A DNA stretch of 64,000 nucleotides from an uncultured Alphaproteobacteria bacterium. GTDB taxonomy: Bacteria; Pseudomonadota; Alphaproteobacteria; Micavibrionales; CSBR16-224. Location: the NCBI GenBank assembly GCA_950054485.1, contig CATLPD010000001.1, forward strand, positions 124,001 to 188,000, written 5' to 3'. A model generated the notes under the pieces. The model was not told where the DNA came from. It ran no database searches and was given only the letters and a program-made list of their open reading frames with translations. Each line of letters starts with the position of its first letter. Position 1 is the stretch's first letter. Shown piece after piece: positions 13,702-51,216 of the stretch. A program made the translations under genes and the position numbers.

Positions 13702-15060
13702 TCAGGCCGATGGCGGCTCGATAAAGCCCGTATTTTCAACATAGGCTGGTCGGTCCGGCAATTGGCGGACCAGCCCATCGGGGCTGCGCCAGTCAATCGT
13801 GTTAAAGCTTTGGCAAGATGGGCACAGCGGGTTCCAATCAATGGCTTTATATCCGCAAGCATTACAGTGCCAATCCGGGCCGGGGCGCGCCTCGGCCGCC
13901 AGTTCCAGCCATTCGCGTGATGTTACATCGTGTCGCCCGTCACGCTGTTCCAGTTCAGCCAGCTGACGGTATGCGCCCGCTGATTTCAGCCAGTCGCGTG
14001 CCTCCTGATAAAAGCCCATCTCCATTGCCGCCTGCCCCATCAGCGCATTACTTTCGGGGCGATAGGTCGCTGTTGAATACAAACGTTTGTACCAACCAAG
14101 TTTATTACTCTTTTTATCATCTTCTGTTTTGCCTTTGGCTTTTGGCGCCAGATCAGCCCACAATTTTGCCAAATCAGGGTGCGGGGCCTGCGGCCAGGCT
14201 TCCTCGATCACTTTGATGGCTTGACGTTTTTTACCACGCTTAACCAGCAGCTTCGCATATAGGGTCGATGCCGGCGTATATCCGACATCAATGCGGTAGG
14301 CTTTTTTCGCAAGGCTGAGGGCTTGGGTTTCAAGGCCTTTTGACAATCCCTGCTGCGCGCGTGCGACCAGCAGACATTGATGGTGCGCATTACCTTTTTC
14401 ACGATCAAACACGCCAAGGCGAATTGCCTTTGTCAGCGTTTTATCCGCTTCAATCCACTGGCAGGCATGTGTTTCGGCATCAAATAGGGCGCGCAATATC
14501 CATTCACGCTTAGGGTGCAGGTTTTCAGCAACGCGCAACAACAACAGCGCCTGTTCCTGATCGTTTTCTTTAATCGCTTCGTTCATCAAACCGCGCAAAC
14601 CAAAGAAAGCGGCATTCTTATCCTCCAGCAAGGTTTCAAATTCAACGCGTGCGCGAGACGGATTATCATTCAATAACGCCGATTGTGCGGCCAGCAAACT
14701 CGCCAGCGGGGCATCCGGAATCAAATCGCTTGCGCGTTTTGCCTGCTTATCAGCGGCTTTGGCATCTCCCGCTGCAACCGCCACAAGGCCCTTTGTCACA
14801 GCCTCGTATCCTTTTTCACGGCTGCGCACCGCATGATACTGACGCATAAAGGCCGGCACATTCACAAGGCCACGCCATAAATGATAAACAACAGCAAAAA
14901 GAACACAGATTGTCAGGCCCACTGCCATTAAAAAGCCGAATGTCGTTTCGAGTAAATATCCGTTCCAGTTGATGACAACCTCGCCCGGGCGCATCGACAG
15001 CCACATGACGATACCGACAAAGATAATAAGCTTAAACAGAAACCATAGGGGTTTTAACAT
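13702..15060 (-). CDS. hemY: HemY-like TPR membrane protein with C-terminal zinc ribbon
   Basis: HemY_N-family proteins are inner-membrane TPR proteins that travel with haem-synthesis genes; their exact role is unsettled. Two membrane segments (about 5-22 and 36-60) are followed by the VNVPAFMRQYHAVRSREKGY region typical of the N-terminal domain and then TPR helices to about residue 380. The C-terminus carries a CxxC...CxxC ribbon (CNACGYKAIDWNPLCPSC). It is the last gene of a hemC-hemD-mitofilin-hemY run and starts 15 bases after the mitofilin-like gene. The name follows the family, not proof of function. Confidence 0.88.
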   Translation of the reverse strand: MLKPLWFLFKLIIFVGIVMWLSMRPGEVVINWNGYLLETTFGFLMAVGLTICVLFAVVYHLWRGLVNVPAFMRQYHAVRSREKGYEAVTKGLVAVAAGDAKAADKQAKRASDLIPDAPLASLLAAQSALLNDNPSRARVEFETLLEDKNAAFFGLRGLMNEAIKENDQEQALLLLRVAENLHPKREWILRALFDAETHACQWIEADKTLTKAIRLGVFDREKGNAHHQCLLVARAQQGLSKGLETQALSLAKKAYRIDVGYTPASTLYAKLLVKRGKKRQAIKVIEEAWPQAPHPDLAKLWADLAPKAKGKTEDDKKSNKLGWYKRLYSTATYRPESNALMGQAAMEMGFYQEARDWLKSAGAYRQLAELEQRDGRHDVTSREWLELAAEARPGPDWHCNACGYKAIDWNPLCPSCQSFNTIDWRSPDGLVRQLPDRPAYVENTGFIEPPSA

Positions 15061-15075
15061 TTATAACATCCTGTA

Positions 15076-16800
15076 TTAAGGGGCCAGACCAGGGTATGTG
15101 CCCTGTATTGCCCCCGGTTTGTTGTTTTGCGGTTGGGACACGACAGCCTTTGACGGCCCCGAAAGGGGACGCAACAATCGAGACATCAGGCTTTGCAAGC
15201 CATCCGTTGAAAGGCTTTGCCCGGACATCAGGCTCTGCATCACATCCATGGTCAGTGCGCGTGTCGCCTGATCGGCGTAAACACGGCTTTGCGCATCTGC
15301 AATCCATGGGGCAGCAACCTTGGCAGATTCCCCTTCCAGTTTTTGCAGCTCGGCAATCGCACCGCTAATATCACCTTGGTCGATTTTCATTTGCGCACGT
15401 ACAACCGTTGCGTCAACCGTATCACTGGTTGAATCATCAACGCGTCTGACAGTCATCATACGGCTGAGGCGTTCCATCGCACGGTTCTGGATGGATGCAT
15501 CTTCGCCGCGCATCTTTGCCATGACAATATCACCCGCAAGGCTTTGAAATTCGCCGCTTAGGTTTTCTTGGGACAAAACCCCCGATTCCGCATAAGGCGC
15601 AAGGCGCTGGATCGAAGCCTGTATTTCAGGATTGTCGTTATTCAAAGATTGCAGTAACTGCAAATCGTTTCTGAAAGAAGTATTTTCACGCCCCAAGCTG
15701 CTGCGCACTTCGTTAAGGGTCAAAAGCATCAAACCTGCCTTCACATCTTCGGCTTTCACATCTTTCATAACCGTTGCCAAAATCGGGTCTTCCTGGCGAA
15801 TAGCGCTGAGGTCTTGCGATGTCAGGTTCCCGCCGTATTGGTTCAGGGTCTGTTGCAAGGCCTGTAAACTGTTTTCCAATGCCTCTGTTCCACCCGGCGT
15901 ATTCATCAATCCGGAAACCTGATTCATCATACTGCCCAGGCCATATAGTTTTTGTTCGGCAAAACTCATTTGCTGTTGCCAATTGCTATTGGCCATATTT
16001 TCAGCCACTTGTTCGGCCGATTGAACCTGTTTCATAATTTCATTTTTAACGCGTTCCAGCTGATCCAATCCTTCATTGATACGTCCGCCGATTGATGAAC
16101 GCTCTTCCTTGATCGTCTCAAGGCGGCGATTCATAGCCGCCATTTCTTTCTGCATCTGTTCATATTCAGCCGCACGTTTTTTCATGCCGTTATATTCGGG
16201 AAGTAAAAGGAATACGCCAACAATCATGATCACGATAAATAGAAACACAAATGTTAAGAGCGAACGCTCCAGAAATTTTTTCTTATGTTGCCATTCGGCT
16301 GCACGCTGTTGACGGCGGTCCAGGCCGGAACGGCGGTCATTAACACGGCGGTCGGGTCCTTTAAAATTCGGATCCTGTTCACGGCGGCGATCGCCCGCAT
16401 TGCGTCGGTCGCTGTAATCACGACGGTCACTTTCAATATCGGGTTGCGCCATAAATTTTGATGATGTTGACGATGCCGGCTTTGGATCGGCATCTGTTTT
16501 TTTATCTATAATCTCCGGCTTTGGTTCGGATTTTTGAGCTGCCATTGGTGTATCCGATTTGGCTTCTGGCGCCTCTGTTTTTTCAGGTTCGGGAGTGTTT
16601 TGCTCTGCCGCATCCAGTGCAATGCCGTCTTCTTTTGCCGCCTGCAAGACTTCAGGTACACGGTTTTCAGGCACAATGCCGCGTTCTTTCCATCCTTGAA
16701 CGGTACTGGCGGCAATGCCGAGGCGGTTCGCCAATGGGCGCAGGCCACCGAACTTTTCAATCACTTCTTCTGCCGGTAATGTTTTATTGTCATCACTCAT
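15076..16800 (-). CDS. Mitofilin/HemX-like membrane protein with N-terminal HTH
   Basis: This 574-residue protein sits where alphaproteobacteria carry a mitofilin-like (COG4223-type) gene in the hem operon. Residues 1-60 form a helix-turn-helix (GGLRPLANRLGIAASTVQGW). An acidic Pro/Ala-rich linker and an Arg-rich stretch with six DRR triplets (about 135-180) come before a single membrane helix (SLLTFVFLFIVIMIVGVFLLL). A coiled coil follows, and then a helical C-terminal domain ending near residue 560. The start used has AAAGG 10 bases upstream, overlapping the hemD stop; a TTG/ATG further upstream (16827) is also open. A DNA-binding-type domain on a membrane-anchored coiled-coil protein is unusual. 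Confidence 0.8.
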   Translation of the reverse strand: MSDDNKTLPAEEVIEKFGGLRPLANRLGIAASTVQGWKERGIVPENRVPEVLQAAKEDGIALDAAEQNTPEPEKTEAPEAKSDTPMAAQKSEPKPEIIDKKTDADPKPASSTSSKFMAQPDIESDRRDYSDRRNAGDRRREQDPNFKGPDRRVNDRRSGLDRRQQRAAEWQHKKKFLERSLLTFVFLFIVIMIVGVFLLLPEYNGMKKRAAEYEQMQKEMAAMNRRLETIKEERSSIGGRINEGLDQLERVKNEIMKQVQSAEQVAENMANSNWQQQMSFAEQKLYGLGSMMNQVSGLMNTPGGTEALENSLQALQQTLNQYGGNLTSQDLSAIRQEDPILATVMKDVKAEDVKAGLMLLTLNEVRSSLGRENTSFRNDLQLLQSLNNDNPEIQASIQRLAPYAESGVLSQENLSGEFQSLAGDIVMAKMRGEDASIQNRAMERLSRMMTVRRVDDSTSDTVDATVVRAQMKIDQGDISGAIAELQKLEGESAKVAAPWIADAQSRVYADQATRALTMDVMQSLMSGQSLSTDGLQSLMSRLLRPLSGPSKAVVSQPQNNKPGAIQGTYPGLAP

Positions 16801-16805
16801 TTTTA

Positions 16806-17528
16806 TCAGCCTTTCAACTCGATACATTTTTTAATCAGACCGTTTTCGGTTTTTTCGTCCGAGACCAGAATTTTTTTCCAGTCTGCAAATTTCAAAGCCT
16901 CTGTCACAGGATCGCTGATGCATATTGCATTCACATCATGCATATGATCCATCACGCCATGCTCTTCCGCCAGCGCGGCAAAAGCCGCCGCCGTACGTTT
17001 CGAAAAAAAGACGACAGATGATATATCACCCGTACGTATCGAGACCAGTGCATCTTCCTGCATACGCGGGGCGCGGTCCATGCGGTAGACCTGAAGGGGG
17101 GCGACAATAAAGCCATCCTCTTTTAAGGTCTCGTAAAAGTTATCCTCAACATGTTCGCCGCAGGGGTGCATCAAACGTGCGCCCGGTTCTGCCTTTTCCA
17201 TGATCAGTTTTGCCAGATCGGCACTGCCGCCCGGCCCGGCTGTCACATTTTCAAAGCCGCGATCTTTTGCTTTTTGCGCCGTTTTCTCCCCGACGCAATA
17301 GGCCGGCATGTCAAAATTGACTTGAAAGGACAGATCACAGAAATATTCAACCGCGCGCGGGCTGGTAAAAATAAAACCGTCTTCAGCATGGCGATCCATA
17401 AAGACGACATTATCGGCACGTACGGGAATCAGCATCGGATCCAACACGCATTCGATTCCGTTTGAAACCAATCTGTCTGCCATTTTCTGTGCAACGTCTG
17501 CGGGCCGTGTAATCAAAACTTTTTTCAA
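16806..17528 (-). CDS. hemD: Uroporphyrinogen-III synthase HemD
   Basis: HemD closes and inverts the D ring of hydroxymethylbilane. The 240-residue length fits. The family is weakly conserved; recognisable parts are KVLITRPADVAQKMADRL at the start, FIFTSPRAVEYF, the AYCVGEKTAQKAKDRGF hinge, and VVFFSKRTAAAFA in the second lobe. The start is TTG with GGGGA 8 bases before it. The assignment is strengthened by the position directly after hemC (82 bases) and directly before the mitofilin-like gene. Confidence 0.9.
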   Translation of the reverse strand: MKKVLITRPADVAQKMADRLVSNGIECVLDPMLIPVRADNVVFMDRHAEDGFIFTSPRAVEYFCDLSFQVNFDMPAYCVGEKTAQKAKDRGFENVTAGPGGSADLAKLIMEKAEPGARLMHPCGEHVEDNFYETLKEDGFIVAPLQVYRMDRAPRMQEDALVSIRTGDISSVVFFSKRTAAAFAALAEEHGVMDHMHDVNAICISDPVTEALKFADWKKILVSDEKTENGLIKKCIELKG

Positions 17529-26087: not shown

Positions 26088-27350
26088 ATGGCAAACTTGA
26101 GCACTTTAAAATATAAGTCGGATTTCCTGAATATCATGGAAGAACGCGGATTTATCCACCAATGCACCAACTTCGAGGAGCTGGACAAACTTCTAACCTC
26201 GGGAAAGGTTACCGCCTATCAGGGCATTGATGCCACCGCAAAAAGTCCGCATATCGGAAACCTGCTGCCGCTGACGATGTTGCGTTGGCTCCATAAATGC
26301 GGGCACAATGTCATTACCCTTGTGGGGGGCGGGACAACCAAGGTTGGTGATCCGTCCGGAAAATCTGAATTGCGCCAGATGCGCACCGAAGATGAAATCA
26401 ACGATAATATAAACAGCATCAAAGAGGCGCTGACAGGCTTGTTCGATTATAACGAACGTACAACTATGGTTAATAATGATGATTGGCTCAGCGGTCTTAA
26501 ATATATTGAGTTCCTGCGCGATTATGGCCGTCATTTCAGCGTAAACCGCATGCTGTCAATGGATAGTGTTAAATTGCGTTTAGAGCGCGAACAACCCCTA
26601 TCCTTTATTGAATTCAATTATATGATTTTACAGGCTTACGATTTTGTCGAGCTTTACAAAGAATATGACTGCCGCCTGCAAGTCGGCGGATCTGACCAGT
26701 GGGGCAATATTGTCAATGGCGTTGAATTGGGCCGGCGCACAGAAAATGTCGAATTGTTCGGCCTGACTTGCCCGCTTCTGTTAAATTCAGCAGGCGAGAA
26801 AATGGGAAAAACTGCAAACGGCGCAGTCTGGCTAAAATCCGATATGCTGTCGCCCTATGATTACTGGCAATACTGGCGCAATTGCGATGACGCTGATGTC
26901 GGCAGGCTATTGCGCTATTTCACCGAACTACCAATGGATGAAATCAGACGCTTGGAAAACCTGAAAGGCGCTGAAATCAACGAGGCCAAAAAAGTACTGG
27001 CCGATGAAGCAACCGCCATCATTCACGGCAAGGCCGAGGCTGATAACGCCCGCGAAACCGCCGAAAAAACATTTGAAGAAGGCGGCGCATTATCGGCGGA
27101 TCTTCCCGTCTATGAAATTTCGCGTGATGCATTGGCCGATGGTATTCCTGTCTTTGTTCTGTTCAAAGATTCCGGCCTTGCAGCATCCAGCGGAGAAGCG
27201 CGTCGACTGATCAAAGGCGGCGGCGCACGCCTGAATGACGAGAAAATCGAAAGTGATGACATGGTCATATCCAATCAGGATTTTGATGGGCAGGACACGA
27301 TCAAACTGTCTGCCGGCAAAAAGCGTCACATCCTGTTAAAGGTATCCTAA
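26088..27350 (+). CDS. tyrS: Tyrosyl-tRNA synthetase
   Basis: This class I synthetase charges tRNA-Tyr. The first signature is HIGNLLPL and the second is KMGKTANG, both within the range for bacterial TyrRS. The tyrosine-binding parts [24 protein letters not shown] and [10 protein letters not shown] are present. The C-terminal S4-like RNA-binding domain covers about 355-420 ([17 protein letters not shown]). I use the ATG at 26088, which gives 420 residues and has AAGG before it; the longer frame from 26022 overlaps anmK and adds a hydrophobic leader not seen in the family. It overlaps the end of the next gene by 4 bases, tail to tail. Confidence 0.97.
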
Positions 27351-28606
27351 AGATTTAGCGGCGTATTTATTTGCACAGGCCGCGCTATCGTATAACGTCC
27401 GGTCTCCGCATAATTTATGCGTGATTGCGCGGCGACCGGGAACCTGTCTTCCACGGTACGGCGCAATAAATCCCTGTTCTGGCTGTAGGGTTTATCCATT
27501 CCGTTTTCGCGTAGATAGATAACAGCATAGTGGCGTATGATTTCAGCCTGCTGTTCAACTGTATAATCTTCAAAAGTTTTATCGGCAGTAAGGTCATAGT
27601 GGTATCTTTGATGGTCCGAGCCCAATGGGTTTTGGGACATGCCGCCTTCTTGCTGCAACTGCCAGATGTGGGTTAGTTCATGCACAAATGCGCCCCACAG
27701 GTCATCATCCTCGACTGTCGCATAATTGTCCCTAAAATATTCGGCCCCATGAAAATGCAGTGAATTATTGATGTTTGTGAAAATATCTGCACCCTCACAC
27801 TTGCGGTTCGAAAAATATTTGCGTGTCTGACTGACATCAATTTCATCACCGAAAATCGCATGCGCCAAATTGGTTTCATCACGCGTAAAAAGCTGCATCG
27901 ATTTCGGCGTGGGCAAAGCCAAACGATAATGAACAGCATTAAAAAATTCGCGTTCGATGGTTCGCATCAAAATATTATCATCTTCGCAATTCGCAATGCC
28001 GTTATGTGATGGGTGCACAAAGCGCTGCGCATAATCCCCCATTATGGCGGCCTGTTGGAAACGGTCGTAACCTGAAAAGCTTTTATCGTAATCCAATGTA
28101 TAAAAATAACGGCTACGCTGATCAATTCTTGCATTTCCAGGCCATTGCATCCCTTCGCGATTTTGTCTTAATAAAACCAGACGCTCTATAAAAACACCTA
28201 ATTGATCGACCTCATCCTCGCGTGCGTAATCTTCGGAGTAATCACGTTCATCAAGGTAAATATAATTGGTATTATTCGCCCAGAATTCGGCGCTGTTGTA
28301 ATCATGAATATCGTTTGCAAAGGCTACAATTCGCACCCCATTGACATTTACCTGCGTTCCTAGAATACCGTGGGCCATTTCGCGTTCGGCACGCGTCAGG
28401 GCGCGGTCGTGAACCGGCAAATATTGTCTGAAACTGTCACTATTAATCCAGTCAATAACATCAAGGCCTGCGCCCTTATCCTCCGCGACAACATCATCCT
28501 GAACGAACGGTTCTGGCATATAAGAGCTGGATGACAGCATTGCTGTGCTGCCCAGTGCGACAGCCCCAAAAATAAGCCTTTTTGATTTTTTCTTGAAATC
28601 TTTCAT
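27347..28606 (-). CDS. Exported HELTH protein, internally duplicated, Vgr-related/DUF4157-like
   Basis: The 419-residue product has a probable signal peptide (basic start, then [18 protein letters not shown]). The C-terminal half (about 238-365) has [18 protein letters not shown], then [10 protein letters not shown] with the HExxH at 309-313, then [20 protein letters not shown]. This pattern matches, from memory, the Vgr-related / DUF4157-type putative zinc peptidases. The N-terminal half (about 68-195) is a second copy of the same domain: [20 protein letters not shown], then [10 protein letters not shown] in place of [10 protein letters not shown], then [20 protein letters not shown]. The N-terminal copy has thus lost all zinc ligands. 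It starts 2 bases after the stop of its paralogue at 28609. Substrate and role unknown. Confidence 0.8.
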
Positions 28607-28608
28607 AT

Positions 28609-30078
28609 CTATCTTCTAAAGAAATACCCGGCAGGGGCGCGCTCGTATGCAGGGTGCGAACATGCATTTTGAAACCGTCCGTCCACAATTTTCGCTTCGG
28701 AATCAACGCGGGCCATGCCTGGAAGATGACCATTTGTTTCAAAAAACAGACGTGTTTCGCGCGCGCGCGGAAAGCGGCTTTCCACCAAACGTTTGATCGC
28801 CTCTTCAACGTCCGCTTTATTATCTTCCTGACCATTCAGTGAAGATGGCAGTCGGTCAGGGCATCGCCCGTGATGTAAAAACAAAGATGCGTAATCACCG
28901 ATAATCGCCGCCTGCTGTTCAGTGCCGTAATCCCCAAAGGACCAGCGGTCAGGGTCAAGCGGATACTGGTATTTTCCACCCCTGTTTACAAACCCTTCGT
29001 TTGTATATTGGTTGTCTGTCTGTCTTTGCCAGTTGTGCGTTAATTCATGATAGAGAGTATTGATAACATTCGCATCTTCGACACGTGAATAATCATCGGC
29101 GTGATTACTGCGTAAAAAGAAGATGATATCTACAGGCGAATAAACCATTCCAGCTGTATGTGTGCCATCATTATTTTGTATGGTATAAGGGTCCATGTGA
29201 AACCACATTTCCGATGTGTCCAGTTCGTCACCGAAAATCATTTCAGCCATGGCGCGTTCGTTTTGATGGATCGGGCGCGCCTCGATCATATGATCCATTC
29301 GGAAATCTCTTAGGTTCGGGAATTCGGCCTCGACCATCTCGATGAAAGCTTTTTGCTCGCGACTCAGGCTATCAGGGCGAGTATATTCTGCACCCCTGTT
29401 TTGCGCGCGTCTGTTCAGATAATCAACATAGGCATTCATCGGGTTGGTTCTGGATGCCGGATGTGCAAAATTATGCATGTAATCCTGTAAAATCTGGCTG
29501 CGCTGCATAACCGTATATTCAACAAAATTTTTGCCGGGCTGAAAACGATATTCAAAACCATTATCCCCCTCGGACGGGTCAGCACCCTCCCAGGCCGAAA
29601 CTGTACGGTTTTGCGTCATTAAGCTGATAAGCCCTGCAAAATGTACGAAACTATCACGCTGAGAGGTATAAAAATCATCCTGATACTCTGCACTGGAGAC
29701 GATGATATATTTATTGTTACTGCGCCAATAGTCTGATTGATTCACAAATGCGGGAAGACGGTCATAAGTTAAAACCTCAATATTATCGGTATCAATATCC
29801 CGCGAAGTGATTTTCTGCACAAGTTGCTCTTCGCTATGCGTCAGACCCCGGCGCTGCTGCGGTGGATTTTGCGCAATCATATCATCTAAATTAAAAACAC
29901 CTGCCGTCAAATCCGGCAGCTTTTGAACAGTACCTTCATCGGTATTTTCAATCTGCGTATCATCCGCCTCGCTCGGTGCTTGATCCGAACAACCGGCAAC
30001 CGCCAAACTGAACGCACCTGCCATCATGACAGACCAGTTTTTGAAAGACGAAATATGAAATCGTTTTTTAAGACGCAT
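28609..30078 (-). CDS. HELTH lipoprotein, internally duplicated, paralogue of 27347
   Basis: The 489-residue product has a lipoprotein signal (LAVAGC, lipidated Cys 30). The C-terminal domain (about 272-402) has ERAMAEMIFGDELD, LYHELTHNWQ with HExxH at 344-348, and KYQYPLDPDRWSFGDYGTEQQAAIIGDYA. The N-terminal domain (about 78-205) repeats the order: GLTHSEEQLVQKI, then a region around 146-156 (FAGLISLMTQ) where the HExxH would be but is not, then EYRFQPGKNFVEYTVMQRSQILQDYM. A linker holds TNPMNAYVDYLNRRAQ. It is the first gene of the pair. A hairpin-forming repeat precedes the start codon. A membrane-anchored partner to a soluble paralogue is plausible but not shown. Confidence 0.8.
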   Translation of the reverse strand: MRLKKRFHISSFKNWSVMMAGAFSLAVAGCSDQAPSEADDTQIENTDEGTVQKLPDLTAGVFNLDDMIAQNPPQQRRGLTHSEEQLVQKITSRDIDTDNIEVLTYDRLPAFVNQSDYWRSNNKYIIVSSAEYQDDFYTSQRDSFVHFAGLISLMTQNRTVSAWEGADPSEGDNGFEYRFQPGKNFVEYTVMQRSQILQDYMHNFAHPASRTNPMNAYVDYLNRRAQNRGAEYTRPDSLSREQKAFIEMVEAEFPNLRDFRMDHMIEARPIHQNERAMAEMIFGDELDTSEMWFHMDPYTIQNNDGTHTAGMVYSPVDIIFFLRSNHADDYSRVEDANVINTLYHELTHNWQRQTDNQYTNEGFVNRGGKYQYPLDPDRWSFGDYGTEQQAAIIGDYASLFLHHGRCPDRLPSSLNGQEDNKADVEEAIKRLVESRFPRARETRLFFETNGHLPGMARVDSEAKIVDGRFQNACSHPAYERAPAGYFFRR

Positions 30079-43968: not shown

Positions 43969-45186
43969 TTATCCCCCCGAGGTCAAAGACCCCATCATAC
44001 TATCCATACTCATGTTCATTACGGTCAAGGCGTAAATCGCACTACCGAAAGCCACAACCAGATACAATCCGGAAATGCCAAAGGCCAGCCAGACAATTAA
44101 ACTGTGTTTTGATTTTGATGCCTGCTGACGCATTTCAGAAATTGATTCCATAACGGTACCGACCTGTGACAGGTCGGCAATACCGGCCAGTTCCAGACGC
44201 TCACTTTTGGTCAATGGTGGGCGGTCCAGCGCGGCACCCAGAATAACGCCGCGTTTCAGATCTTCGTTCGCATCATCCCAATATTGACTTACTTCCGGAA
44301 TCGTTGTTGCCTCAGACGCCTGGCTTAGCACATCTGAAATCGGAACCTTACCGCGGATCATACGGGCTGCCGCCGCCGTTGAATCCGCAAAACCCAAATC
44401 GCGCAGATACCCATTGATCAGGGGTATTTTGCGTGTCATGCGTGCGGCCAAAAAGTTCTTTTTTCCGCGATTGTGCCAATATGATAACAGCATCCATGCA
44501 AAGAAAACGGCAATCCCGACAGCGGTCCAGATCAGAACATCCCACAGCAGTTCAAGGTTTCCGACAACCTCGTTATATTGTTCCAGTTCTTCGGCTTCCT
44601 GTGGTGGGTTTTCACGGAACCAGGCGATAATTTTACCGCGTCCCCAGAACATACCCTGCACAATCGTAAAAATATCAAAACCCAACCAGGCCATCGTACC
44701 CATAATTGCGCGGCGGTTTTTACGCTTGTTGGTAATATTTTGAATGGCGTGCGGGATACCTTCATGCAGGCGGTTACTTTTTTCACTGGCCGATAAAATC
44801 GCAATGGTACCGTGGTCAAAAATATTCAAGGCTTTCAAGGCATCAATAACCCCAAGGCCACGCGACAAAGCCTCACGCGCAGGTGATAAAATATTCTGAC
44901 GGCGCGGGTTGGTTTCGGCCTGTATCAAACGCCACAGGGCAACCCCCGGCGATGTCGCAGTCGATCGGAACTGGATACCGCGTAATAACTGAACCTGCCA
45001 CCAACTGGATCGGGCCAGCCAGCGCTCGAACGCGTTACGTTCATGCGGGCGGATTGACAAAACATATCCACCACGCTTCACAATCAACTGGCGAACGTCC
45101 TGTTCGGACGGCATGTAGAACGCTTCGGAGCTCACTTTTGGCCCCCGCGGCGTATCAACAGCAAATTCAACCAGCCATTGTTGCAT
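43969..45186 (-). CDS. Type II secretion F / PilC-family inner-membrane protein
   Basis: This 405-residue platform protein of the pilus machine has the duplicated F-domain layout: a first helical domain ending IMGTMAWLGFDIFTIVQGMFW, a membrane helix (LLWDVLIWTAVGIAVFFAWML), a second F domain and a C-terminal helix (LIVWLAFGISGLYLVVAFGSAIYAL). The segment SREALSRGLGVIDALKALNIF fits the first domain. It interacts with the ATPase and pilins in related systems. The start has AAAGG 8 bases upstream. It follows the ATPase gene by 52 bases. Confidence 0.85.
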   Translation of the reverse strand: MQQWLVEFAVDTPRGPKVSSEAFYMPSEQDVRQLIVKRGGYVLSIRPHERNAFERWLARSSWWQVQLLRGIQFRSTATSPGVALWRLIQAETNPRRQNILSPAREALSRGLGVIDALKALNIFDHGTIAILSASEKSNRLHEGIPHAIQNITNKRKNRRAIMGTMAWLGFDIFTIVQGMFWGRGKIIAWFRENPPQEAEELEQYNEVVGNLELLWDVLIWTAVGIAVFFAWMLLSYWHNRGKKNFLAARMTRKIPLINGYLRDLGFADSTAAAARMIRGKVPISDVLSQASEATTIPEVSQYWDDANEDLKRGVILGAALDRPPLTKSERLELAGIADLSQVGTVMESISEMRQQASKSKHSLIVWLAFGISGLYLVVAFGSAIYALTVMNMSMDSMMGSLTSGG

Positions 45187-45238
45187 TAATTAAAACCTTT
45201 TCTTTCATATACCCTTTAGTATAGGGGCTATTCCTAAA

Positions 45239-47083
45239 TTATTCGTCAATCTGCGCCAGCGCTTTGTTCGGGTCAATCAACCCTTCCTTCACCAGCGATT
45301 TCAAATTATCAAGACGTCTGTAATAGGTAACGCCGTCTTCCAAAGCGACATTGTTCACGTTTTCCATCAAGGCGTGGAAAATCGGATCACGTTTCGCGAG
45401 CGGCGTATCAATCAGCAGTGCCTCCAGCAGCAGCGTACGGCCAAGAATACCTGTACGGTTACACAAATCACAGCCGTTCGGGTTTTGCAGATGGACAACC
45501 GTGTGGGCATCCAGCTCAAGGCGTTCTATTTTATCTGGACTTAAAACCTCGTGCGCAGGGTATTTCTGTGCACAACTGTGACACAATGTGCGAACAAGGC
45601 GCTGGTTCAAAATCGCGCGAATTTGCTGAGACAGCGTATAAGTTGAAGATCGCGCACGCTCTGACGGCATAAAGGATCGCAATCGCTCCAGCGTCTGTAC
45701 AGCCGTATCGGCGTGAATGGTTGAAATCACGGTGTGGCCTGATTCCGCCGCTTTCAGGGCGGTTTCGACAGTGGCGCCATCGCGCATCTCACCGATGATG
45801 ATATAGTCGGGATCATGACGCATCGCGGATCGAATAAAGTCAGAAAACTCCAGCCCTTCGCGCCCCGATGACACCTGCCACTGCGTTGCATAGCGCATTT
45901 CATATTCAATCGGGTCTTCAATCGTCAATACGTGACGTCTGCGGCGATCAATTTCAAGAACACAAGCATACAGGGTTGTCGATTTACCGGAACCGGTTGG
46001 ACCTGACATCAAAATCAGACCCCCACCACCCTTAATCTCAGGTGAAAGCAGCTTGGCCAAATGGTCACCCACATGGGGGTGTTTTTTAAACAACTGATCG
46101 AAAGATTTCAGACTGGCCCTATCCAAAAGACGTAAGGTCAGCTTTTCACCATCCTGCGCATGCGGGCCCGCCGCAACACGAACATCAATATTACGACCCT
46201 GCCAGCCAAAACCGAAACGGCCATCCTGCGGGCGGCTTCTGTCACCAAAGTTCAACCCTGAATCGCGTTTAATCAAGGTGGTCAAACGCGCCATCGCATC
46301 AGACGGCAGCAAGTGCATTGGTACCAAATCCCCGTCAATGCGGTAATGAATCCAGTTCGGTGCATCCTGCGCAAAGTTCTGAATGATGTGAATATCCGAT
46401 GCACGCAACTGCAGGGCTTCGGCCAGCATATCGCGCTGGAACTGGTTGAGCAAAAGACCGTTATCAATATCCAGCAACCACGAAGACAATGTTTTTTCTG
46501 TACGGTCAGCCGACAGATCATGAACCGATTGTAAGGTCGATGTCAGTTCGGCCCTGTCCCACAGCTCGATCTCCACATTATCAACATGGAAACTGCTTCG
46601 GTTCGCGGTTGATTTCAAATTTGCAAGCTGACGTTCTGATAATTCATTCAAAGGGGCAATTTTTAAAACGCCGTCTTCCAGTGACACCAGATGAATATTC
46701 AGCGGCAGCCAGGACTGCACCGGCAACATAGCGCGCAACTGGTCACCGGTCGCGTTTGTGCGAACACCTTCTTCACTGGCCTCCTGATCACTACCGGCAC
46801 CTGTCATACTAAGGAGTTGTTCGGCCGATTTTGAAATACCCTGCTGCATTAATAGCGATCGTTCTTTCAAGACCATATCAAGATAGCGTTCACGCACAAT
46901 TGACAAACGGTTGGTGCGGCGATCACCTTTGCGGCGGTCATCAAGCCCTTCGGGCGGGCCGGCATCCTCTTGACGGCGGTCCCCACCTGTCGTCCGCAGT
47001 TCAGGCGGCACTGTACCGCCTGTCTGTTTTGTCAGGCGGTCAATGTGGATATCCAACGGTGAATTTTCGTTCTGCTCGTCCAT
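45239..47083 (-). CDS. GspE/PilB-family pilus assembly ATPase
   Basis: The 614-residue cytoplasmic ATPase powers pilus extension. An N-terminal tail has DRR triplets (GGDRRQ, DDRRKGDRR). The MshE-like N-terminal domain is followed by the ATPase domain: Walker A GPTGSGKSTTLYA near residue 357, the Asp box TIEDPIEYEM, Walker B YIIIGEMRD, and the His box ESGHTVISTIHA. The four-Cys metal site of the family is present (LCHSC and CDLC). No retraction ATPase (PilT type) is seen in the window. The gene is 11 bases downstream of the Ig-like/PilP-like gene. Confidence 0.93.
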   Translation of the reverse strand: MDEQNENSPLDIHIDRLTKQTGGTVPPELRTTGGDRRQEDAGPPEGLDDRRKGDRRTNRLSIVRERYLDMVLKERSLLMQQGISKSAEQLLSMTGAGSDQEASEEGVRTNATGDQLRAMLPVQSWLPLNIHLVSLEDGVLKIAPLNELSERQLANLKSTANRSSFHVDNVEIELWDRAELTSTLQSVHDLSADRTEKTLSSWLLDIDNGLLLNQFQRDMLAEALQLRASDIHIIQNFAQDAPNWIHYRIDGDLVPMHLLPSDAMARLTTLIKRDSGLNFGDRSRPQDGRFGFGWQGRNIDVRVAAGPHAQDGEKLTLRLLDRASLKSFDQLFKKHPHVGDHLAKLLSPEIKGGGGLILMSGPTGSGKSTTLYACVLEIDRRRRHVLTIEDPIEYEMRYATQWQVSSGREGLEFSDFIRSAMRHDPDYIIIGEMRDGATVETALKAAESGHTVISTIHADTAVQTLERLRSFMPSERARSSTYTLSQQIRAILNQRLVRTLCHSCAQKYPAHEVLSPDKIERLELDAHTVVHLQNPNGCDLCNRTGILGRTLLLEALLIDTPLAKRDPIFHALMENVNNVALEDGVTYYRRLDNLKSLVKEGLIDPNKALAQIDE

Positions 47084-47094
47084 ATACCTAACTA

Positions 47095-48630
47095 TTAATT
47101 GTCATCATCTGATGAAGATGACGCGTTATTATTACTATTATTGTTGTTTGATGATGACGAAGAATCATTCGTAGTATTGTTTATACGTGTCGGGGTCAAT
47201 GATCTGTCAAAAACCAACAATATCGAATTATTTCCGTTCATCAAATCAACGCCAGTCGACTTGATGTCAACTTGCCATGGGACACCGGCAATAACCGTTT
47301 CCTGGCCGTCTTTAACAACAATTGTTCCAATCGGACCTGAAATCACAGCGGTTCTGGGGGATAAAGAGGTGACAATATATCCATCCAGATTGATCGGAAC
47401 ATCATCCTGTATTTCGCCGTCCATCGTTCTGACCGATATTGAATCACGTGAAACGGCAGCATCTGCCTCGCCGCGAACCGGAATAACAAGAATACCGCGC
47501 GCGCCGGTGTGACGGATCTGTACATCATCCAGTAACGGCCCCGTGCGACTGGGTGCCCATGTGATTGTCAAAGGGCACGCCGCGTTCGGCGCCAATACGC
47601 GCCCGCGATCGCAACCGTTTCTGCCGACGCTTAAGCCGTTGTCACTGCTGGACAAACGAATATCCTGAATGATCAGATCCTGATCACCGACATTCACCAA
47701 GCTGGCCGTAATCGCGGAAACGCTTTCAATACCACTTTCAAAATCAAATTCACTTTTATCTGTAATCAAAAGACCCGAATTCGGGACCGTATCGGGATAG
47801 ATCGGTGCGTCAGCGGGTGTATCAGGCGCATAGTCACCGGAAACATCAACGCGGCTGATCCCCGTAACACCATCATGCTTAATGACAAGACTGCCCAAAG
47901 ACGGACCACGAATAGTCGGCGACCATGTCACTGTTGCAATACAGGCCGCGCCGGCTTTCAGGTTTTCACAATTTGTTTTATAGCTGTAGCCCGACTTAGG
48001 TGCCGCCTCCAGATATATTTCGTCAATTTTGATTTCCTGCGGGGTCTTGTTACGAAAGGTAATCGAACGGATTTGCTCGATACCCGAGCTTACCGATCCG
48101 AAATCCAAAGCCTCCGGAAAAGCTTCCAGTTCGGATTGCGCCGTTTGTTCCTGATTTTCCAAACCCTCAACGGTTCCCGAAACAGATGCTGTCGCCAAAC
48201 GCGTGCGTCCGTTATGATCAATCAGCATTTCGATGCGATAGCTACCGACCTGAAGGCCCGATGCCGCAATCGTAATCGCACAGTCAGCACCAGGTGGTAA
48301 CGGTTCGCGCGCACATTGATTCAAAGAAACATTCGCCGAAACAGTCGAAGATGGATAAAGATTGATTTCGCCAACCTCGACAGGTGAAACACCGTCATTA
48401 CGGAACAGCACGACGATATATGATGTTGAACCGACAGTCAGCTCGCCGCCTTCGATACTTTCTTCAACCGCTGTTAGGTTTGGTCCTGCCGTTGCTGACC
48501 CGCCGCCGCCAGAGCCATCAAAGGACCGGAACTGCGCCTGTGCATTACCGGAAAATGATGTAAGAACCAACGCCATAGACATCATGAACGCCGAAAACAA
48601 AACCGGTAATCTGTTTTTTATAACCTGCAT
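47095..48630 (-). CDS. Exported pilus protein: Ig-like repeats plus PilP/GspC-like domain
   Basis: A signal peptide (cleavage near AQAQ) leads a 511-residue periplasmic protein. Three tandem beta domains of the ASH/choice-of-anchor type (about 45-155, 165-270, 285-390) each have the repeated pattern LDFGSVSSG...ITFRN...C...W(S/A)P. The next part, about 400-475, reads PINLDGYIVTSLSPRTAVIS, then IGTIVVKDG and GVDLMNGNNSILLVF, which fits the PilP/GspC homology domain that links inner-membrane parts to the secretin. The last 35 residues are Ser/Asn/Asp low complexity. It lies between secretin and ATPase genes. The fusion is an inference from pattern, not a search. Confidence 0.75.
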   Translation of the reverse strand: MQVIKNRLPVLFSAFMMSMALVLTSFSGNAQAQFRSFDGSGGGGSATAGPNLTAVEESIEGGELTVGSTSYIVVLFRNDGVSPVEVGEINLYPSSTVSANVSLNQCAREPLPPGADCAITIAASGLQVGSYRIEMLIDHNGRTRLATASVSGTVEGLENQEQTAQSELEAFPEALDFGSVSSGIEQIRSITFRNKTPQEIKIDEIYLEAAPKSGYSYKTNCENLKAGAACIATVTWSPTIRGPSLGSLVIKHDGVTGISRVDVSGDYAPDTPADAPIYPDTVPNSGLLITDKSEFDFESGIESVSAITASLVNVGDQDLIIQDIRLSSSDNGLSVGRNGCDRGRVLAPNAACPLTITWAPSRTGPLLDDVQIRHTGARGILVIPVRGEADAAVSRDSISVRTMDGEIQDDVPINLDGYIVTSLSPRTAVISGPIGTIVVKDGQETVIAGVPWQVDIKSTGVDLMNGNNSILLVFDRSLTPTRINNTTNDSSSSSNNNNSNNNASSSSDDDN

Positions 48631-48653
48631 ATTACCCCTTATTACGCAAAGAA

Positions 48654-50186
48654 TTAAGGCTGACCCTCAATTGTTAATATAGGCTGTGGCTCTGAAATTG
48701 CTACTGGCGCCAATGCGTCAGCAGGAATTGCGCCCATTGACAGCCCTTCCATATCCTCGTCCATATCATTATCGGCACGGTTTTTCTGTTCTTTCATTGC
48801 GCGAACTTCCGGTGTTTCATACACCAGAACGCGTGGACGGAACAGGAAGACCAGCTCGGATGTTTCGGTTGACGCCAGACGTGATGTCGGGAACAGCGGC
48901 TTCATAAAGCCCGGACCGCTTTCTGTGTTATTATCATTTTCCGTGACCAAACCGCCGATCAAAATCGCATCCCCCGGACGCACACGCACCTGCGTTTGCA
49001 AGCCGCGTTCAGTCGTATTCGGCAACTGAACGGTCGTCCCGTCACCGCCGACAAAGTTTTGCAATGCTAAGAGTTCGTTCAAAGTAATATCAATCGTGCC
49101 GTAAACGGTTGATTCATCCCATCCACTGCCGATAGTCAGGTTCAAACCTGTATCGATTGTATCTGTCTGAATCGAGAATGTTTCATCGCCGACATCGTCA
49201 ACCGTACGCGTCACTTCACTGACATAGTTTGATGAATTCTGGACGGATAGCGTGGCTTCAGACCCTGAAAGAACCGTCAACTGTGGTTGCGATACAGTTT
49301 TGACCGCGCCATATTCGGAGATAAATTCAAACACAGTCGTCGCATTGAAATCGCCACCGCTGAATGTCGGCGTAATCGTAATTGGCGCAGCTGAACCTGC
49401 AGGCGCAGCCCCCGGGACGTTAAAGTTGATATCAAAATTACCCAGATTCTCTAGAAGACCCGACCAATTAATACCGGTGCGGTTTTCGTTATTCAAGGTT
49501 ACTTCCCAGATATGGGTTTCAAAAACGATCAAGGCCGTATTCTTGCGCAGACGCGCAAAATAATCGTCGGCATATCGCGCCGATCTGTTTGATGCCTGAT
49601 AGACAATAACATTTGTTGATTCATCGATGATCGGCTCCGCGCTGTCTTCTCCCAAAACAGTGCTGAGGCCTTCAACAATACCGTCCAAACCGGTTTCACC
49701 ACTTAAAGGCGGCAAATCAACAACAAAAGTTTCTGTTTCTTTCACCGTTAAAAGACCATCGCTGTATGAACAATAAAGATTGGCCAGACCGCAGACGCGG
49801 TCGACCACTTTTGGTAAACGGCCACTAAGGTTTGCAACGGTAATCCGCTCGTTCAAACCGGCATCGGTTTCAAACGCCATCGAAATATCGAAATCCGACA
49901 GGATCAATTGCAACGCTCCGGCCAGCGTTTCCGAACGCAATTCATACGGCCCCACGTAAACATCGGGCAACGGGTCGCTTTTGGCGGCCTTTGGTACCAA
50001 AACATCATTTTCAAGTGGAATATAGGTAATCGGCTGATAGCTTTCGTTCAGCGCTTTCATCTTTTCACGCGCCTTAACTGGTGATCCGATATCAACGCTG
50101 TGATCGCCCGGCCTGTCAACAGGAGCACAGGCTGTCAGAACAAATGCAGCCGCCGCACATAAAATATATTTTTTTATTATCCCCAT
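48654..50186 (-). CDS. Lipoprotein secretin (PilN/BfpB type)
   Basis: The signal ends in LTAC, so this 510-residue protein is a lipoprotein, as in the type IVb PilN/BfpB secretins. The N-terminal part has a STN/N0-like domain (ILSDFDISMAFETDAGLNERI). The N1-like domain is FVVDLPPLSG... with a VYQASNRSARYADDYF segment. The C-terminal secretin domain has the signature LQTQVRVRPGDAILIGGLV and ends with LVFLFRPRVLVYE. It forms the outer-membrane pore. It is the second gene of the cluster, 10 bases after the response regulator. Confidence 0.92.
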   Translation of the reverse strand: MGIIKKYILCAAAAFVLTACAPVDRPGDHSVDIGSPVKAREKMKALNESYQPITYIPLENDVLVPKAAKSDPLPDVYVGPYELRSETLAGALQLILSDFDISMAFETDAGLNERITVANLSGRLPKVVDRVCGLANLYCSYSDGLLTVKETETFVVDLPPLSGETGLDGIVEGLSTVLGEDSAEPIIDESTNVIVYQASNRSARYADDYFARLRKNTALIVFETHIWEVTLNNENRTGINWSGLLENLGNFDINFNVPGAAPAGSAAPITITPTFSGGDFNATTVFEFISEYGAVKTVSQPQLTVLSGSEATLSVQNSSNYVSEVTRTVDDVGDETFSIQTDTIDTGLNLTIGSGWDESTVYGTIDITLNELLALQNFVGGDGTTVQLPNTTERGLQTQVRVRPGDAILIGGLVTENDNNTESGPGFMKPLFPTSRLASTETSELVFLFRPRVLVYETPEVRAMKEQKNRADNDMDEDMEGLSMGAIPADALAPVAISEPQPILTIEGQP

Positions 50187-50196
50187 TATAACCCCT

Positions 50197-50643
50197 TTAC
50201 GATGCAGCCTGTCCTAACAGCCGCTGCACGGTTGCGATCAGCCTGTCTTTTTGCACCGGCTTCAGCATAACAATATTAATGCTATAGTGACTTGCCTGTT
50301 CTAGCAAATCATTATTTTGATCACCGGTCAGCAGAATAATAGGCACCCTGTGGTTTTGACCGTGTATGTTTTTGACAAATTCAAAGCCGCCCATGGGCTC
50401 CATCCGAACATCCAGAATAATCAAGCCGATTGAACTGTCCAGCTTTTTCAGCGCCTCGGTTCCGTCGGCAGCCTCCTCGAGCGTATAACCAACACCCTTC
50501 AGGAAACCCGCGATTTGCATGCGAACGAATTCGTTATCTTCGACAATCAATATTTTTTTGCTATTTGAATCCGGCATCTGGTGTGAATACTTTATAGAAT
50601 AAATTGGGCGGGAGGCGTCCAGATCGAAAAAACCCTTAGCCAT
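50197..50643 (-). CDS. Single-domain response regulator at the head of the pilus operon
   Basis: This receiver-only protein has the acidic pair in ILIVEDNEF, the phospho-acceptor in LIILDVRM, the Thr in ILLTGDQN and the Lys in VMLKPVQKD. After the Asp the usual MPxMDG reads MEPMGGFE, so the conserved Pro and Asp are altered. The frame opens at 50643, but the promoter found just upstream would start transcription almost at that ATG; translation from MPDSNSKK at 50577 is equally likely and matches the family's normal N-terminus. It probably controls or tunes the pilus, perhaps with the hybrid kinase at 37826; that pairing is inference. Confidence 0.88.
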   Translation of the reverse strand: MAKGFFDLDASRPIYSIKYSHQMPDSNSKKILIVEDNEFVRMQIAGFLKGVGYTLEEAADGTEALKKLDSSIGLIILDVRMEPMGGFEFVKNIHGQNHRVPIILLTGDQNNDLLEQASHYSINIVMLKPVQKDRLIATVQRLLGQAAS

Positions 50644-50651
50644 GTCCCGTC

Positions 50652-50681
50652 ATTATATATTAGACTATAGGCGTGATGCAA
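50652..50681 (-). promoter_or_regulatory. Promoter of the pilus operon
   Basis: On the minus strand TTGCAT and TATAAT are separated by 18 bases. The -10 ends 8 bases before the ATG at 50643, so the transcript is leaderless or translation begins at 50577. Confidence 0.5.
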
Positions 50682-50688
50682 TAGTCTA
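50661..50688. promoter_or_regulatory. Candidate operator between pilus operon and prepilin peptidase
   Basis: The perfect inverted repeat TAGACTAT-N12-ATAGTCTA sits in the divergent region. One arm lies in the spacer and the other abuts the -35 of the operon promoter, a normal site for a repressor. Confidence 0.4.
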
Positions 50689-50709
50689 TATCCAATCTAG
50701 GGATCACGA

Positions 50710-51216
50710 ATGTTTTTTAGCACGATGGCCTTTTTTATACTGATCTTTGCCCTGCTGGCCAAACTGGCCTGGACAGATCACAAGTTTTATTTATTACCAA
50801 ACGTCTATAATCTGTCTTTGCTGATCTGCTATCTCGGCTTTCACATGATGACCAAATGGCATTTTGTCGCCATCGACAAGGCTATATGGGGCGCCATTGC
50901 CGGCGGCGGGTTTCTGATTATCCTGCGGGCCGTTGCCAACCATGTCATGAAAACAGACACAATCGGTTTCGGCGATATCAAATTTGTGATTGCCGCAGGT
51001 TTTGGCCTTGGTATTCCCAATGTCTTTCTGGTTTTAACAATCGGATCGGCCCTTGGAATTTTCCACGGCATCATTTTATATATGATTGAAGACCGCAAAA
51101 CCGAAGAAAACCTTGACCTCAGTCACGTTAATGTTCCGGCAGGTGTCGGCCTTTGTATCGCAACCGCTTTGATTACACTCTATCAATTTAATGGTTGGTG
51201 GAGGCTCTTCTCATGA
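50710..51216 (+). CDS. Prepilin peptidase (A24 family, CpaA/TadV-like)
   Basis: This 168-residue integral membrane aspartic protease cuts prepilin leaders. The two catalytic Asp are in WTDHKFYLLPN (near residue 22) and GFGDIKF (near residue 95), the GxGDxK motif of the family. It has about six membrane segments and lacks the N-terminal methylase domain of PilD. That agrees with pilins that do not have a Glu5 cue and may not be methylated. It is divergent from the pilus operon and overlaps the CoA transferase gene by 4 bases. Confidence 0.88.
   Translation: MFFSTMAFFILIFALLAKLAWTDHKFYLLPNVYNLSLLICYLGFHMMTKWHFVAIDKAIWGAIAGGGFLIILRAVANHVMKTDTIGFGDIKFVIAAGFGLGIPNVFLVLTIGSALGIFHGIILYMIEDRKTEENLDLSHVNVPAGVGLCIATALITLYQFNGWWRLFS

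Follow-up and report, generated by a model that had tools for sequence, protein, structure and literature searches.

The C-terminal effector domain of VgrG2b (VgrG2bC-ter) is a periplasmic antibacterial toxin whose activity depends on catalysis (PMC6899460). Zinc is coordinated by H935 and H939, with E983 as the third ligand and E936 in the catalytic triad (PMC6899460). The toxin depletes lipoproteins from membranes, direct cleavage of a substrate not having been identified in that main study, and a distinct immunity protein located in the envelope neutralises it (PMC6899460). In solution, VgrG2bC-ter is mainly a monomer, with dimeric species also present (PMC6899460). VgrG2b-type domains are often annotated as DUF4157/eCIS_core, and homologs occur in Sphingomonadaceae, though the T6SS is rare there (PMC6899460). 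In the open-access literature, we found no role for VgrG2b-family homologs outside the T6SS, no published VgrG2b-type protein with a dead duplicate, and no report that assigns a substrate, a partner or a phenotype to an exported protein with two such domains. Here, this family is compared with the products of two adjacent genes, A and B, in the window (the whole 64,000-nucleotide stretch of alphaproteobacterial DNA that was analysed). Sequence and fold both indicate that A and B almost certainly belong to the VgrG2b C-terminal (Tpe1-type) gluzincin family, as two-domain proteins exported by a Micavibrio-type alphaproteobacterium.

The A/B gene pair and its surroundings

Gene B lies upstream of gene A on the same strand, with a gap of 2 bases (28607-28608), and the open reading frames, coordinates and gap given in the initial annotation of this DNA were reproduced exactly (Table 1). 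One product had been taken for a lipoprotein and the other for a protein with a plain signal peptide, and both export signals were found: in B, a lipobox (LAVAGC) runs up to Cys30, and A has a basic and hydrophobic N terminus with no lipobox. A one-sequence search aligns the two proteins end to end at E=5e-30, and about 400 residues are covered at 25% identity. The start of B is 60 bases beyond a YhdP-type gene on the same strand, the stop of A overlaps that of the convergent tyrS gene (27347-27350), and genes for anmK, BacA and a DUF4139 protein are located nearby. No small immunity-type ORF adjoins A/B, since A ends in tyrS, B abuts the YhdP-type gene, and there is no space between B and A. 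In a neighbourhood comparison, no flanking gene of the two-domain members was common to different genera, and gene context therefore gives no functional clue. Besides A and B, the window genome contains three more single-domain members. Elsewhere in the window, a HemY-type gene stands beside a mitofilin (Mic60)-domain gene (13702-16827), and a type II secretion-like cluster is also present (Table 1).

TABLE 1 Coordinates of the A/B gene pair, its domains and motifs, and the type II secretion-like cluster (positions in the window)
Feature	Position	Strand	Description
Gene A	27347..28606	-	419 aa: export signal without lipobox, dead N copy, live C copy
A dead N copy	27911..28417	-	Residues 64-232
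A live C copy	27404..27907	-	Residues 234-401
A HELTH zinc motif	27668..27682	-	Residues 309-313
A predicted third zinc ligand	27554..27556	-	Glu351 (EQQA)
A degenerate zinc motif	28172..28186	-	ERLVL, N copy, residues 141-145
A lost third-ligand position	28058..28060	-	N copy, Phe183 in RFQQA
Gene B	28609..30078	-	489 aa: lipoprotein signal, dead N copy, live C copy
B lipoprotein signal peptide	29989..30078	-	Through Cys30
B dead N copy	29293..29862	-	Residues 73-262, most diverged copy
B live C copy	28732..29283	-	Residues 266-449
B HELTH zinc motif	29035..29049	-	Residues 344-348
B predicted third zinc ligand	28918..28920	-	Glu387 (EQQA)
B degenerate zinc motif	29620..29634	-	GLISL, N copy, residues 149-153
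B lost third-ligand position	29506..29508	-	N copy, Met191 in VMQRS
T2SSF protein	43969-45186		In type II secretion-like cluster
T2SSE ATPase	45239-47083		In type II secretion-like cluster
ASPM-SPD-2-Hydin (ASH) domain protein	47095-48630		Between secretin and ATPase
Secretin	48654-50186		In type II secretion-like cluster
Prepilin peptidase	50710-51216		In type II secretion-like cluster

Relationship to the VgrG2b effector domain

Among solved structures, the only significant match was to the P. aeruginosa VgrG2b effector domain (PDB 6h56), at E=3.2e-24 with the A1 profile and E=1.6e-10 with A alone. The initial annotation had described the domain as "Vgr-related/DUF4157-type"; the first part stands, the relative being the VgrG2b C-terminal metallopeptidase, and the second does not hold by profile. 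DUF4157/eCIS_core (PF13699) has the HExxH helix in common with A and B, but neither protein matches its profile, and the relatives reach at best E=0.15 (2 of the 12 members of A1). Pfam as a whole gave nothing above cut-off for A, B or their relatives, and neither A nor B matched an NCBIfam family.

The AF2 model of A (pLDDT 79, pTM 0.70) presents one order of strands and helices twice, in much the same form, and its C half matches 6h56 with Z 13.9 over 160 residues (rmsd 3.7), the next entry scoring Z 6.1. The N half of B, modelled alone (pLDDT 82, pTM 0.79) from an alignment that included live relatives and was thereby biased toward the family fold, matches 6h56 with Z 10.6 over 139 residues, with the next entry at Z 5.0. 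By Foldseek alone, 6h56 is again the top match for this half, at an E-value of 2e-3; the VIA-align 2 re-comparison was restricted to Foldseek's own candidates, and the absence of other families there is uninformative. A different fold for the N half, which would have spoken against the initial annotation, was looked for by structure prediction, and the fold of 6h56 was obtained instead.

When aligned to 6h56, the Glu of the zinc motif corresponds to chain residue 171 and that of EQQ to residue 218, a spacing of 47 that is the same as that from E936 to E983, and the Glu of EQQA, residue E351 of A and E387 of B, is therefore predicted to be the third zinc ligand. The C copies thus show sequence homology with the VgrG2bC-ter/Tpe1 family together with its ligands in both A and B and its fold in the A model. 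The N copies do not qualify as active members; all three ligands are gone in both A and B, and the homologous fold is all that connects them with the family.

One live and one dead copy in each protein

The domain profile matches twice in each protein, in agreement with the earlier reading of A and B as two copies of one domain of which only the C-terminal one keeps HExxH. The 10-residue stretches that had been quoted from the N copies, at residues 139-148 of A and 147-156 of B (FAGLISLMTQ), were likewise found as described. When scored with a profile of live single-domain relatives only, from which A, B and all N copies were excluded, the N halves of A and B reach 87 and 53 bits, respectively, and the best of 860 shuffles reaches 10 bits; the column template of this profile was built including the window sequence, making the profile independent in sequences and not in column layout. 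The internal repeat in A and B is far beyond chance, and by both profile and structure models the N half has the fold of the C half and is a dead duplicate of it. The third-ligand Glu is also lost in the N copies (F183 in A and M191 in B), indicating that the entire metal site is gone and not HExxH alone, a loss that is read from the sequences and was overlooked in the initial annotation. The alternative pairing of an active gene with an inactive one was ruled out for A and B by the presence of a live C copy in both genes.

Conservation of the live copy and selection on the dead copy

Ten distinct two-domain proteins were available, namely A and B of the window, two from L035, and those of L054 to L059, plus a near-identical ortholog in G052. 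HExxH and the Glu are kept in all 10 C copies. The third-ligand Glu is kept in none of the 10 N copies, and none of the nine that have the HExxH segment has it intact. Among the single-domain relatives in the tree, 37 of 38 keep both HExxH and the Glu. The exception, L063:3731-4900 (the same gene as L040:8530-9699), has HEMTR for HEMTH with the EQQA Glu kept, and it is the second of three single-domain genes in tandem, a possible separate inactivation. The N-copy motifs of relatives include the intermediates HEFTR, YELTH, YELTR, and YEITQ, the first three of which indicate that the N copy decayed from an active site. In addition, A, L058, and L059 carry one Cys per copy (C207/C270, C210/C272, and C191/C253, respectively), at the end of the N copy and in the C copy and 62 to 63 residues apart, which are the only Cys residues of these proteins outside the signal region. 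This pair is present in 3 of the 10 two-domain proteins, and an inter-domain disulfide is possible in these three.

The N copies retain 6 of 37 cells at the four zinc/catalytic positions versus 78 of 94 at the other near-invariant positions (at least 90% invariant in live copies), with a Fisher p of 1e-12 that is overstated, the rows being related. Between the G020 and G052 orthologs, the one related species pair to which dN/dS refers, the window lineage having no close ortholog, the ratio is 0.10 to 0.13 in the N copy, compared with about 0.07 in the C copy. The low N-copy value indicates that the dead copy is maintained in the G020/G052 lineage. That the dead copy is decaying baggage with no function is highly improbable. 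The N copy does evolve faster than the C copy (the end branch of B_N is 2.1), and the N copy of L056 lacks its front half, which means either that the protein can sometimes do without a full N copy or that the L056 gene is decaying. However, the N copy is under purifying selection in G020/G052, frames are open through the full-length N copies, and N-copy positions such as F132, H134, and N85 are strongly conserved. With its catalytic residues lost, its fold kept, and purifying selection acting on it in the G020/G052 pair, the N copy is, by sequence and model and by dN/dS from that one related pair, an old, maintained pseudopeptidase, and the dead half is very probably a maintained non-catalytic module.

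Distribution and origin of the two-domain genes

Besides the window genome, genomes from one other family of the same order contain two-domain genes, and 289 sampled genomes of the class showed none elsewhere; L057 and L059 are two-domain proteins from two MAGs labelled only Alphaproteobacteria. A scan of genome contigs with A alone as the query returned no relative. Tandem pairs of single-domain genes are common in the order, and the genes of one such pair (L060:3911-5286) have overlapping ends, with one lipobox and one plain signal, as in B and A. Many of the short single-domain relatives (about 150 to 200 aa) have no evident export signal, the protein starting directly with the domain, and L020 and L021 (G046 and G053; single-contig, about 2.5 Mb) have one single-domain lipoprotein member each. 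A 229-aa protein with no Pfam match (L035:11218-11907 and L039:7559-8248), 84% identical between two genomes, adjoins the two-domain genes of that lineage. The second gene of the G052 pair (L030:1401-2312) has a single domain with an N-copy-like front and a C-copy-like back; it looks recombined between copies, or it could be an assembly artefact of a short contig.

The domain tree joins A_N and B_N as a sister pair (support 99/97) and groups all N copies except L059_N together. A single clade for all N copies is compatible with the data (p-AU 0.369), but the long branches of L059_N and B_N leave one origin of the N copies unproven. The C copies do not form one clade (3 changes), and few branches there are well supported. 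The simplest reading of these sequences would be one domain duplication with early loss of the metal site, after which the gene as a whole was duplicated in the window lineage. By their placement in the tree, A and B are sister products of a gene duplication that postdates the N/C domain duplication, and a separate gene duplication probably took place in the G020/G052 lineage.

What the dead copy may do

Sequence and model support a course in which a single-domain peptidase would have been duplicated in tandem, the N copy would then have lost its zinc ligands and kept its fold, and the two-domain gene would have been duplicated to give the B-A tandem. The C copy may cleave a cell-envelope protein, with B acting from its lipid anchor and A being periplasmic or weakly anchored. 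The dead copy would be a fixed partner of the live copy, binding a substrate or a partner protein, and may position or restrain the catalytic site through a putative contact with the active site. We lean towards this explanation as a whole, that is, an exported pair in which the dead half partners the live half, and a binding, positioning, or restraining role of the dead half in particular is plausible, if a little short of probable. The initial annotation's proposal of a regulator, substrate clamp or inhibitor-binding face for the inactive half is likewise plausible. Because export is by a signal peptide, the enzyme comes into contact with the envelope of the cell that makes it, and there the dead copy may also keep a toxin-family peptidase harmless, a task for which T6SS relatives use a separate immunity protein. 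It is quite unlikely that the dead N copy goes as far as being a built-in antidote that occupies or caps the live copy and replaces an immunity protein, and it is equally doubtful that such an antidote lets a T6SS-less bacterium pass a VgrG2b-type peptidase safely through its own periplasm or that release follows upon contact with a target or prey.

A fixed partner might also be a scaffold and nothing else. If an ancestral dimer had been fused by tandem duplication, each protein would be a covalent pseudo-dimer with one active site per dimer, which we consider rather unlikely. This arrangement is consistent with the dimeric species of the mostly monomeric VgrG2bC-ter in solution (PMC6899460), with the fold positions kept by the N copy, and with the common tandem single-domain pairs of the order, which point to frequent duplication. 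Nevertheless, single-domain relatives persist without a fused partner, indicating that the partner is not obligatory, and dN/dS and conservation fit the pseudo-dimer and a dead half that partners the live half alike.

The N-terminal domain of anthrax lethal factor has a zincin-like fold without a zinc site and docks on the translocation channel. By analogy, A and B could be effectors that are moved into prey at predation or contact, with the dead copy as a docking or delivery adaptor, a scheme that seems unlikely. The C copy of the A model resembles the N-terminal and catalytic domains of lethal factor at Z 5 to 6, although this may reflect merely a common arrangement. The relatives that have been characterised act as antibacterial toxins in the periplasm (PMC6899460), and the window contains the type II-like secretion cluster (43969-51216). 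In addition, some related contigs in the order were deposited as Micavibrio sp., and M. aeruginosavorus is an obligate predator (PMC6145908); A/B-type enzymes may therefore bear on predation. However, the genes have no linked delivery machine and no signal beyond the one for export, and the lipoprotein anchor of B argues for retention.

Comparison with known systems

Domains I and IV of anthrax lethal factor are a dead copy beside a live copy in one chain. Lethal factor is an unrelated family or resembles A/B at the fold level, and the function of its dead domain is not transferable by homology. The same is true of carboxypeptidase D, which also has an inactive and a live copy in one chain (reviewed in PMC11266112) and is an unrelated family or alike at the fold level only. 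The single-domain relatives of Sphingomonadaceae, Moraxellaceae, and Micavibrio-type bacteria have the same domain, with HExxH and EQQA, but they contain one live copy only. In contrast to Tpe-Tpi systems, A/B have no adjoining immunity-type ORF, and the T6SS markers VipB and Hcp, the two that were searched, had no match in the 99.99% complete genome. T6SS linkage of A/B was ruled out by the absence of these two markers.

The VgrG2b effector domain (6h56) and the Tpe1 family have the catalytic domain and the three zinc ligands in common with the C copies of A and B. The known members act in the periplasm, and A and B are predicted to go there too. Unlike these members, A and B carry an export signal instead of relying on T6SS delivery, and each has a dead N-terminal duplicate. 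The A/B architecture is real and conserved and extends a family known as an injected antibacterial toxin, and a lineage that exports such enzymes behind a dead twin offers a tractable system for the family's target and for pseudopeptidase control of a live copy.
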